Shown here: piece by piece, positions 19,667-22,440 of the stretch
Position numbering within the stretch: position 1 is the first letter of the stretch
How the letters are laid out: each line of letters starts with the position of its first letter
Virus record (IMG/VR): IMGVR_UViG_3300010354_008821
Coordinates: 1 to 22,469 of that record
Source of the DNA: a virus
Strand: one strand, 5' to 3'
DNA length: 22,469 nucleotides
The notes under the pieces: model-generated
The model's database searches: none
The model's input: only the letters and a program-made list of their open reading frames with translations
Told to the model about the DNA's origin: nothing
Program-made: the position numbers and the translations under genes

Positions 19667-20475
19667 AATTCTTTAATACCTTCATCAAGTGAAATTTGAG
19701 GGGAAAATCCAAGTGCATTTAATTTGGAAACGTCCAAATAAAAATCACGAGATTGTACAATATCATGAAATTTTGGAGTATCAATTGACTTAAATTTGCT
19801 CGGACTATTTAGATATTCTTTTGCTCTTTCCATTATAGCACGAATTGCCACTGGTTGACCACTACCAATATTGTAGATGGTATTGTATTCTCCACAATCA
19901 CATACCATTTTAATTGCTCTACATACATCTTCAACATGCAGCAGGTCTCTCAAAACATATCCACCTTCATATAAATTAATATCTTCTCCTTTCTTAAGAA
20001 GATCAATCATATATTGGATTGCATTCTTTTTTGAAGAAGACTTTTTGTCTCCAATACCATAAACATTTGATAACCGCAGAATGCGATATTTAACGTCAAA
20101 AGTTTCACAAAAAGATATTAATAATTGCTCTGCAGCTCTTTTAGTAATAGAGTAAAAACCAGTAGGATCACAATTATCAGTTTCTCTTGCTGGAAGTCTA
20201 GATCTTCCATAAACAAACCAAGAACTAATAAAATTAAAAACAATATCTTTATCTTTGCATTTTTCCAAAACATCCATTAAGACTTTTAAATTTGTATCAA
20301 TATCTACATGCAAATCTTCGTATACATTATAATTATGTACTGTAGAAATAAAGTATATAACTTCATTAGTCAAAGGATCTCGTTCATCTCTGGAAATTGG
20401 TAGAGATGTATCGGGATACATTCTGCAAAAATTTCCACCAACGAATCCAGTTCCACCATAAATTGAATATTTCAT
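19657..20475 (-). CDS. NAD-dependent epimerase/reductase (extended SDR, WcaG/RfbJ-like)
   Basis: The product has 272 residues. YGGTGFVGGNF is the NAD(P)-binding glycine loop; NFISSWFVYG and FYSITKRAAEQLL give the Ser and Tyr-xxx-Lys catalytic residues; RLSNVYGIGD and VLRDLLHVEDVCRAI are typical extended-SDR motifs. Directly upstream of the RfbH-like gene (10-base overlap), it could act like CDP-abequose or paratose synthase, reducing the 4-keto group after 3-deoxygenation. That role is inferred; a plain 4-epimerase is possible. Confidence 0.85.
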   Translation of the reverse strand: MKYSIYGGTGFVGGNFCRMYPDTSLPISRDERDPLTNEVIYFISTVHNYNVYEDLHVDIDTNLKVLMDVLEKCKDKDIVFNFISSWFVYGRSRLPARETDNCDPTGFYSITKRAAEQLLISFCETFDVKYRILRLSNVYGIGDKKSSSKKNAIQYMIDLLKKGEDINLYEGGYVLRDLLHVEDVCRAIKMVCDCGEYNTIYNIGSGQPVAIRAIMERAKEYLNSPSKFKSIDTPKFHDIVQSRDFYLDVSKLNALGFSPQISLDEGIKELCL

Positions 20476-21140
20476 AGTTTTTCCTTATAGTTACAAGTCC
20501 ATAGAGTGTACAATGCTCTTTCTAAAATATGTGATTCCAATGGAACAACAGAATAAGAAACATAAGATTGAAGTTTTTTATAGAACTCCTTTGAATACGA
20601 AAGAATATTTTGTTTTGGTACAACATAATTTCCACCAGGAGCAAATCTAATATAGTCAGGAAAAAATGGATCTATGAAATTATCATCTAAAAATTGATTA
20701 TACGTATTATAATATTTTCTCTCCATTCCAGTATAAGTAAATGCATTATCATTTGGTTCCATATACATTCCATCATTTACCCTAGGATATGTACATTGAC
20801 TGTGATACCTTTCAATGGGGTAGAAAGTATTAATTTCAAAAGCCCGTTTTATCTTATCCAGAGTTGCATAATAATACTCACCATTTATTTCAGAATAAAT
20901 CATATTTCCTTTCATGAATATGACTATATCGGGTAGATTATCGTATCTTTCAATTATAAATCTAAACATGTCGTAAATATTTTCCCCAACATTCGGACTC
21001 AAATAAAAATTTCCTAAGTGAGACCAATCTTTTGGATCATTACTTCTATCGTAAATTGTAATGTTTTCTTTTGGAAAATTTGATATTTTTATCCATTCCA
21101 AATCAGATTTCCAATTAGAAATTACAAGTTCCCTTTTCAT
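20472..21140 (-). CDS. DUF3431-type putative glycosyltransferase, first gene of glycan operon
   Basis: The product has 222 residues. NVGENIYDMFRFIIERYDN with LPDIVIFMKGN is the DUF3431 signature as I know it, a family fused or linked to glycosyltransferases; APGGNYVVPKQNIL, near residue 167, is its conserved later block. No transmembrane segment. It starts 19 bases after the terminator hairpin of the leader (21159-21186), so it is the first gene exposed to attenuation. The next gene overlaps by four bases. Confidence 0.8.
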   Translation of the reverse strand: MKRELVISNWKSDLEWIKISNFPKENITIYDRSNDPKDWSHLGNFYLSPNVGENIYDMFRFIIERYDNLPDIVIFMKGNMIYSEINGEYYYATLDKIKRAFEINTFYPIERYHSQCTYPRVNDGMYMEPNDNAFTYTGMERKYYNTYNQFLDDNFIDPFFPDYIRFAPGGNYVVPKQNILSYSKEFYKKLQSYVSYSVVPLESHILERALYTLWTCNYKEKL

Positions 21141-21158
21141 TTTTTCATTTTATTTTAT

Positions 21159-21186
21159 AAAAAAAGGGAGTTGTTGTCAACTCCCT
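21159..21186 (-). terminator. intrinsic terminator (attenuator) before the glycan operon
   Basis: AGGGAGTTG and CAACTCCCT form a 9-bp stem with a 4-base loop, followed on the minus strand by seven T. It lies between a structured leader and the ATG at 21140 with no gene stop nearby, so it acts on the leader rather than ending a coding transcript. Confidence 0.85.
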
Positions 21187-21310
21187 AAGAAAAACATTCA
21201 GGCTCGCCACCAATTCTTTAACTGGAAATTGGAAACCAGGCGGGAGAGAGTCCCATCCGCACCAGCAAGAATATTTAATGTGCCTTATCTTACGGGCACC
21301 AAAAAGGTAA
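21187..21310 (-). ncRNA. structured leader RNA with pseudoknot, riboswitch candidate
   Basis: Minus-strand RNA from 5' to 3': hairpin GUGCC/GGCAC (21295-21299 with 21280-21284); a 4-bp hairpin GGGA/UCCC near 21243-21254; then CUGG (21236-21239), CCAAUU (21227-21232), CCAG (21222-21225), AAUUGG (21210-21215). The order gives two interleaved stems, an H-type pseudoknot. CGC/GCG (21240-21242 with 21205-21207) could enclose it. No gene is seen here. A terminator follows at once. Known cyanophage leader motifs wcaG RNA and manA RNA contain pseudoknots and sit before glycan or light-response genes; wcaG fits the context, but I cannot confirm its consensus by eye. Confidence 0.6.
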
Positions 21311-21323
21311 GTTAAAAACCTCA

Positions 21324-21351
21324 AATATCACCAACTCTAGACTTAACTCAA
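21324..21351 (-). promoter_or_regulatory. possible promoter of the glycan operon leader
   Basis: TTGAGT (21346-21351) and GATATT (21324-21329) are 16 bases apart on the minus strand, matching four of six consensus bases each. The start would fall near 21317, just before the structured leader. Weak match; position is the main support. Confidence 0.3.
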
Positions 21352-21488
21352 GGAGTTTCTTGAAGTTTTGAAAGAAGATCATTAAATCTACTTTCAAGTT
21401 CATCTAGTCTTTTTTCCAAATTAGTTTCAGAAACACTAGATGAAACTGCTGAAGATTGTGATTATGATGATGATTTTTTAGTTGCCAT
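21348..21488 (-). pseudogene. small Ser-rich coiled-coil gene with premature TAA
   Basis: ATG at 21488 gives MATKKSSS, then TAA at codon 9 (21462-21464), after which the same frame continues with SQSSAVSSSVSETNLEK and RLDELESRFNDLLSKLQETP to a TGA at 21348-21350. The downstream part is a plausible heptad coiled coil, so the frame looks conserved apart from one stop. TAA differs from the repeated TCA (Ser) codons around it by one base. Options: nonsense mutation, sequencing error, or restart at a TTG (NLEKRLDE). A CTAAATA late-promoter-like motif is at 21513-21519. Confidence 0.6.
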
Positions 21489-21545
21489 TTTAGAAAAATA
21501 TAACTCTTTTGATATTTAGTTTTAAAGGGTCTATTGACTCCACCA

Positions 21546-21565
21546 CCTAGTTTGCACTAACTAGG
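21546..21565. repeat. inverted repeat at the stop of a membrane gene
   Basis: CCTAGTT and AACTAGG form a 7-bp stem with a 6-base loop overlapping the TAG stop at 21547-21549. No T run follows on either strand, so it is at best a factor-dependent terminator or RNA-end stabiliser. Confidence 0.4.
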
Positions 21566-21780
21566 AAAAGTTGGATTAGTTTTGGTACTTCTATAGCAGC
21601 ATAAAAACCACATAAGAAAAGAATATCCCAAAATTTGTATTTAATAGCAAAGGGAACGACAAAAATATTCCCAATACATTTTACAAATAATCCAATTTTC
21701 ATATCTCCCCATAACAGAAAAAAGTATCCTGATAAAAGAAGAATGTTGCCAATGTATCGAAATACATTAGATTTTGCCAT
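21547..21780 (-). CDS. 77-residue integral membrane protein
   Basis: The product has two or three hydrophobic helices (YIGNILLLSGYFFLLWG; FVKCIGNIFVVPFAI; DILFLCGFYAAIEVPKLIQ) and short polar links with few charges. GGGAG lies about ten bases before the ATG. A short 6-bp hairpin (ATAGTC/GACTAT) is in the 50 bases upstream. Function unknown; a small inner- or thylakoid-membrane protein of a kind common in cyanophage early regions. Confidence 0.65.
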   Translation of the reverse strand: MAKSNVFRYIGNILLLSGYFFLLWGDMKIGLFVKCIGNIFVVPFAIKYKFWDILFLCGFYAAIEVPKLIQLFLVSAN

Positions 21781-21828: not shown

Positions 21829-22074
21829 TTAATCATCTTTTACGTAACAAGGAACCATATCTGGATCTAACCATTTTGTATATTCAAAATCTTCCATAGC
21901 AGTCATTAACTGCATTTCGTTATCGCAAAGATACATATCTCGATAACGACCTGTATAAGAGTCTACTTTTTGAATACGACAATCTGGTTTACCATTAAGT
22001 TCTAAGGTGCCAACTTGAACATAACGATATGGAAATCTTTCCATAATAACAGTTGGTTTCCGAATTACTTTCAT
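21829..22074 (-). CDS. 81-residue soluble protein of unknown function
   Basis: I use ATG 22074, sharing a base with the upstream TGA (TGATG); an in-frame GTG precedes it. The product (MKVIRKPTVIMERFPYRYVQ and on) is mixed alpha/beta with paired Cys-Arg/Cys-Asp motifs (KPDCRIQKVDSYTGRY; MYLCDNEMQLMTAMED). No membrane segment. Coupled to the first gene after the early promoter, so probably an early protein. Family not recognised. Confidence 0.65.
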   Translation of the reverse strand: MKVIRKPTVIMERFPYRYVQVGTLELNGKPDCRIQKVDSYTGRYRDMYLCDNEMQLMTAMEDFEYTKWLDPDMVPCYVKDD

Positions 22075-22289
22075 CACGCAACTTCAACAGATTCAAGATC
22101 AGCAAGAACATATTCCATAAGCATCTCATAATCATCCAGAGGATCACCAGAAAATACTACACCTTCGTTTTCATAGTACCGACGAACCTTTTTGTAGAGT
22201 TTCGGATTCTTTACATCAAGGTAGAAATCGCCATTTGCGGCACCACGAAGAGTTTGGATGTCTTTCTTGAATTTTGCTGTAAGAGTCAT
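22074..22289 (-). CDS. 71-residue early-region protein
   Basis: The start is ATG 22289 (MTLTAKFKKDIQTLRG), because the longer open frame to 22340 runs through the promoter at 22312-22340 and cannot all be transcribed. The product is basic at the N-terminus and acidic at the C-terminus (DDYEMLMEYVLADLESVEV), with KNPKLYKKVRRYYENEGVVF between. It is soluble and possibly helical. As first gene after a strong host-type promoter it is likely expressed early. Function unknown. Confidence 0.65.
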   Translation of the reverse strand: MTLTAKFKKDIQTLRGAANGDFYLDVKNPKLYKKVRRYYENEGVVFSGDPLDDYEMLMEYVLADLESVEVA

Positions 22290-22311: not shown

Positions 22312-22340
22312 ATTATAAGGGTTTGACTTGGAGAAGTCAA
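22312..22340 (-). promoter_or_regulatory. near-consensus sigma70 early promoter
   Basis: TTGACT (22335-22340) and a perfect TATAAT (22312-22317) are separated by exactly 17 bases on the minus strand. Transcription would begin near 22305, about 16 bases before the ATG at 22289. This is the best host-type promoter in the window. Confidence 0.85.
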
Positions 22341-22363: not shown

Positions 22364-22366
22364 TAG

Positions 22367-22440
22367 TGCTCGTTGTCAGGATTGAACTGACCTCTGCCGA
22401 TTTATGAGATCGGTCCCTTCAACCAGATGGGTAAACGAGC
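22367..22440 (-). tRNA. tRNA with CAU anticodon (Met elongator or Ile2)
   Basis: A 74-base cloverleaf: acceptor GCTCGTT pairs perfectly with AACGAGC, discriminator A; D arm CCC/GGG with loop containing GG; anticodon stem CCGAT/ATCGG with loop CTCATAA (anticodon CAT); T arm GTCAG/CTGAC with loop TTCAATC. CCA is not encoded. The anticodon stem lacks the three G:C pairs of initiator tRNA, leaving elongator Met or lysidine-modified Ile as options. It would help decode the phage's AT-rich codons. Confidence 0.92.

Follow-up and report, generated by a model that had tools for sequence, protein, structure and literature searches.

To which message does the structured RNA between the small genes and the glycan operon of this virus belong: the operon that follows it, or the genes that precede it? 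The RNA is a copy of wcaG, a family that has been listed since 2010 as a possible riboswitch, with no ligand assigned to it. An earlier note on the window (the whole 22,469-nt stretch of DNA analyzed here) read the region as an aptamer with an expression platform, i.e., as the attenuator leader of the glycan operon. The relatives suggest another assignment, in which wcaG would be the folded tail of the preceding message and not, as viewed since 2010, a switch opening the sugar-gene message. From the sequence comparisons described below, we consider it probable (about 0.68) that wcaG is the structured 3' end of a short early unit, GC249-GC250-orfT, rather than a 5' leader belonging to the glycan operon. 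The features of the locus are collected in Table 1.

Table 1. Features of the wcaG locus in the window, in the order of transcription (S1 and S2, stems of a pseudoknot).
Feature	Position	Strand	Details
tRNA-Met gene, immediately 5' of the GC249 promoter	22366..22440	-	
Putative sigma-70-type promoter of the upstream unit	22312..22340	-	TTGACT-17-TATAAT; 11/12
GC249-like gene (phrog_552), function unassigned	22074..22289	-	start MTLTAKFKK; ORF listed from 22340
GC250-like gene (phrog_481; cyanophage 'gp206'), function unassigned	21829..22077	-	
orfT (phrog_2318), small probable membrane protein	21547..21780	-	last codons overlap PK0
Pseudoknot module PK0	21546..21571	-	S1 ACT/AGT, S2 CCTAGTT/AACTAGG, then UGGUG
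PK0-wcaG insert	21312..21519	-	late-promoter-like CTAAATA 21519-21513; small degenerate ORF 21488-21312
wcaG RNA (RF01761)	21196..21301	-	80.8 bits
wcaG PK1, variant form	21265..21299	-	S1 GTGCC/GGCAC at 21299-21295 / 21284-21280; S2 GTAAGA/TCTTGC
wcaG central hairpin	21242..21254	-	GGGA/TCCC inside GGTGCGGATGGG..CCCGCC
wcaG PK2	21210..21239	-	S1 CTGG/CCAG at 21239-21236 / 21225-21222; S2 CCAATT/AATTGG at 21232-21227 / 21215-21210
Predicted intrinsic terminator, 9-bp stem and T tract	21159..21186	-	from sequence; stem-loop AGGGAGTTG-ACAA-CAACTCCCT at 21186-21165, then T tract
Putative promoter inside the terminator	21152..21180	-	-35 TTGACA 21180-21175, 17 nt, -10 TAAAAT 21157-21152; 11/12
First glycan-operon gene (DUF3431)	20472..21140	-	ATG at 21140

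Screening of the whole window with the Rfam covariance models, which the earlier note had proposed with wcaG and manA as candidates, identified the leader as wcaG (RF01761; 80.8 bits against a cut-off of 42, E 5.8e-14), with the match spanning model positions 1-98. This was the sole Rfam match in the window, and manA (RF01745) was therefore rejected. The relatives used for comparison came from an exact-core pattern search, which found at least 120 viral stretches with the wcaG core, and from a distant search, which found 57 phage records; the comparison set comprised about 140 wcaG relatives overall. The exact core had no match in bacterial genome contigs. One strong copy was present per genome record, by which the idea of a repeated cassette was rejected. 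Because many of the viral loci are closely related, duplicates (identical 180-nt stretches) were dropped for the downstream counts; they were kept for the upstream-neighbour count.

The wcaG fold consists of two H-type pseudoknots, PK1 and PK2, with a hairpin between them. The interleaved stems of PK2, already recognized as a pseudoknot in the earlier note, are present on the minus strand and covary, whereas its GUGCC/GGCAC hairpin is real as a pairing but not as a plain hairpin, because the loop GUAAGA pairs with UCUUGC, which makes it an H-type pseudoknot (PK1). Among 56 distinct relatives, 96.3% of the pair cells of the two-pseudoknot structure were standard (81.2% in shuffled sets), and the covariation score was 0.474 in comparison with 0.196 after shuffling (0/500), falling to at most 0.14 once the partners were slid; the compensatory changes that the earlier note had asked for are thus strong. 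PK1 S1 was poorly aligned by MAFFT, so a structural parse was used for it (own 3.09, swapped 2.48, 0/1000). It should be stressed that the viral loci were chosen by the exact core, so the constancy of the hairpin, and that of PK2 S1 on its 5' side, partly reflects this selection; the PK2 S1 compensations stem from the phage records. No hairpin variants of the exact core were found among the matches listed, but in S-SKS1-type loci (GGGTGG..CCGTCCAG) PK2 S1 is swapped to CCAG/CTGG.

A pseudoknot scan anchored at UGG[CU]G gave 273 modules in bins of at least 10 against 3 in a block-shuffled control, the high-scoring ones being mostly PK1 and PK2. PK0, which the earlier note had not described, is found in some freshwater loci at a distance of about 80 nt on the 5' side of the core. 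Marine loci have a further module, PK3, downstream and beyond the Rfam wcaG model; in seven loci PK3 was seen after PK2, several times directly before a tRNA gene. The variant PK1 of the window recurs in seven loci, and its S1 takes the forms GTGCC/GGCAC, GTCCC/GGGAC, and GCGCC/GGCGC among the relatives, with one broken pair in two of the seven (L030 and L119). The same seven loci have homing-endonuclease-like ORFs (by eye, GIY-YIG/NUMOD-like or HNH-like) just upstream of wcaG; these ORFs end in the variant PK1, and their C-termini read ..W[SCR]PQDK[AG]Q unless stopped early, while S-CAM3 has, in the matching place, an unrelated ORF with the end SPQDKG. In another seven loci the 5' part of wcaG is replaced by different domains, which show no sequence relationship to the usual PK1 and all join at UGGUGCGG.

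The upstream unit of the window begins with a promoter sequence that the earlier note had missed. A sigma-70 promoter scoring at least 9/12 precedes GC249 in 66 of 70 distinct upstream regions (50 of 1400 shuffles), mostly as TTGACA/T-17-TATAAT placed 22-23 nt ahead of the start codon. Early genes of cyanophages are thought to use the unmodified host polymerase and sigma-70-like promoters (PMC2984593). The small degenerate ORF in the insert between PK0 and wcaG has three in-frame stops ahead of its end, and no relative of it was found among phages or in the wcaG loci examined; the matching place in S-SM2, flanked by the PK0-side hairpin and by wcaG, holds an intact small gene.

The neighbourhood of wcaG is conserved upstream but not downstream. 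Of the 120 loci with at least 1.5 kb upstream among the matches listed, 118 had GC249, GC250, orfT, talC, or g120 upstream of wcaG and on its strand, and 105 had GC250 itself. In the isolates, GC250 was upstream of wcaG in 20/22 and any of the five genes in 22/22; none of the 22 had GC249/GC250-associated genes downstream. The first downstream feature was a tRNA in 16 of 108 loci among the matches listed and fell into 25 protein clusters in the rest, the largest of which (41) was sugar epimerase-like. A tRNA stood downstream in 9/22 isolates, and the genes following wcaG in the relatives included tRNAs, hli, tail fibre, oxygenase, and sugar genes. In the window it is indeed a glycan operon that follows, as the earlier note had stated.

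The 9-bp terminator that the note had placed after the leader was also confirmed. A feature absent from that note is that the terminator loop contains the -35 box TTGACA; with the -10 box 17 nt further on, this places wcaG upstream of the likely promoter of the glycan operon itself. Among the matches listed, 94 of 115 distinct loci had a terminator within 130 nt after wcaG (68 of 575 shuffles, 11.8%), and 101 of 115 had a strong terminator or a tRNA directly after it. The terminator/promoter composite, defined as a TTG hexamer in the terminator loop, a spacer of 16-18 nt (nearly always 17), and a TATAAT-like box, occurred in 69 of 115 distinct loci among the matches listed, as opposed to 13 of 2300 shuffles. 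The loop hexamers were mostly TTGCAT or TTGACA, and these counts admit both, as scoring against TTGACA alone misses the common TTGCAT form. S-MbCM25 has a terminator and a separate promoter, both between wcaG and hli.

Taken together, the upstream promoter, the conserved upstream neighbours, the terminator/promoter composite, and the variable downstream genes locate wcaG at the 3' end of the unit formed by GC249 and GC250. If both promoters and the terminator function as they read, host RNA polymerase would initiate at the sigma-70 promoter that precedes GC249, transcribe the small genes and then the array of H-type pseudoknots (PK0, then PK1-hairpin-PK2 of wcaG), and stop at the terminator just 3' of wcaG, and the glycan operon would start anew from the promoter whose -35 box is the terminator loop. 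Many marine relatives have a tRNA in place of the terminator or next to it, and their 3' end could therefore be generated by tRNA processing. The likeliest role of the pseudoknots would be to protect the 3' end or to set free a stable RNA from it, with control of read-through coming second. More tentatively, and with the odds somewhat against it, wcaG may be, instead of a 5' riboswitch, one form of a broader cyanophage 3'-end element, built of 2-4 tandem H-type pseudoknots that all carry a UGG[CU]G tail. Such an element would protect or free the 3' end of an early phage message, the end itself arising at an intrinsic terminator or through tRNA processing.

The main rival explanation retains a regulatory switch: wcaG would sense a ligand or protein and gate read-through from the GC249 promoter into the glycan operon, which would be transcribed from its own promoter besides. 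This would fit the position of wcaG directly before the terminator, the frequent presence of sugar genes downstream, and the listing of wcaG as a possible riboswitch (Weinberg 2010, PMC2864571), as well as P-SSM2, in which GC249-250 and a GDP-mannose dehydratase gene are closely packed; no wcaG reached the Rfam cut-off in this region of P-SSM2, and the arrangement also counts in favour of the 3'-end assignment. No sign was seen of the simplest form of such control, an antiterminator pairing specific to the individual locus, which was rejected: the terminator arm paired with its own wcaG at a mean of -10.96 kcal/mol and with those of other loci at -10.87, the own pairing being better in 38/67, i.e., there was no locus-specific signal of alternative pairing between an aptamer and its platform. 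Since, moreover, the terminator carries a putative promoter, several relatives stand before tRNAs or lack a terminator, and the downstream genes vary widely, we regard read-through control as rather unlikely. The same observations, together with the conserved upstream neighbours, tell against the attenuator leader of the earlier note: the wcaG identity, the covarying stems, the terminator, and the glycan genes hold good, while control of the operon by its leader is not supported.

It is less probable still that wcaG is freed, by termination or by RNase E or RNase P cutting, as a stable small RNA that would act in trans and have its RNA or protein targets in the host or the phage, a view with which the tandem pseudoknots ahead of a terminator or tRNA and the single strong copy per genome record are consistent. 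Finally, the locus could be a gene-shuffling cassette of the PeSL type (promoter-early stem-loop, a composite promoter-terminator reported in T4-like phages; Arbiol 2010, Comeau 2014, via PMC4503421), in which the RNA fold is incidental and conserved border DNA lets phages swap downstream modules. The conserved upstream side with swapped downstream modules, the composite itself, and the endonuclease-like genes adjoining wcaG agree with that idea, but compensatory changes strongly preserve the RNA fold despite sequence change. The contigs with wcaG hold 34 further PeSL-like composites in 1.05 Mb, and 0/34 are preceded within 20 nt by a TGGYG tail; the composite is thus of a general PeSL-like type that wcaG adjoins, and a mere cassette seems very improbable. 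For the region of S-PM2 studied in PMC4503421, its authors consider exchange driven by PeSLs unlikely. The passages on terminators, promoters, and ncRNA in the S-PM2 RNA-seq paper do not mention the wcaG locus.

Several observations weigh against assigning wcaG to the 3' end of the preceding message. In about 11-14 of 115 loci among the matches listed, wcaG is followed by no strong terminator and no recognized tRNA, and in some of these an ORF, in several cases an oxygenase, starts 6-19 nt past it, which looks like a 5' UTR or an intercistronic site. The very high conservation of the core, which also favours read-through control, is typical of ligand- or protein-binding RNAs. In the window, the -10 box TAAAAT is weaker than the usual TATAAT, and a late-promoter-like sequence and a degenerate gene separate PK0 from wcaG. 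If wcaG nevertheless belongs to the 3' end of the preceding message, ligand searches guided by the downstream sugar or light genes have been aimed at the wrong gene, and the partners to study would be GC249/GC250 together with the tRNA or terminator found after wcaG.

wcaG is a known family, which its first description took to be probably a 5' UTR element and possibly a riboswitch (Weinberg 2010, PMC2864571); the window copy is a new member with a variant PK1, and what is new is the evidence on its location. It shares with the published wcaG the core, the cyanophage context, and downstream sugar or high-light genes, and differs in standing 3' of GC249/GC250 and before a terminator that carries the promoter of the next operon. 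In comparison with the Rfam model, its PK1 is a variant and the array reaches past the model (PK0 here, PK3 in marine loci). The manA RNA (RF01745) is likewise a structured RNA of cyanophages, unlike wcaG without a match in the window. In S-CREM1, an annotated manA RNA (2361-2730) lies about 370 nt 3' of wcaG, directly between tRNA-Leu and tRNA-Asn, an odd site for a 5' UTR element. As in the PeSLs of T4-like phages (as cited in PMC4503421), a sigma-70 promoter sequence in the window overlaps the stem-loop of a terminator, and the site is a gene border within a variable region, whereas the window composite is joined to a pseudoknot RNA.
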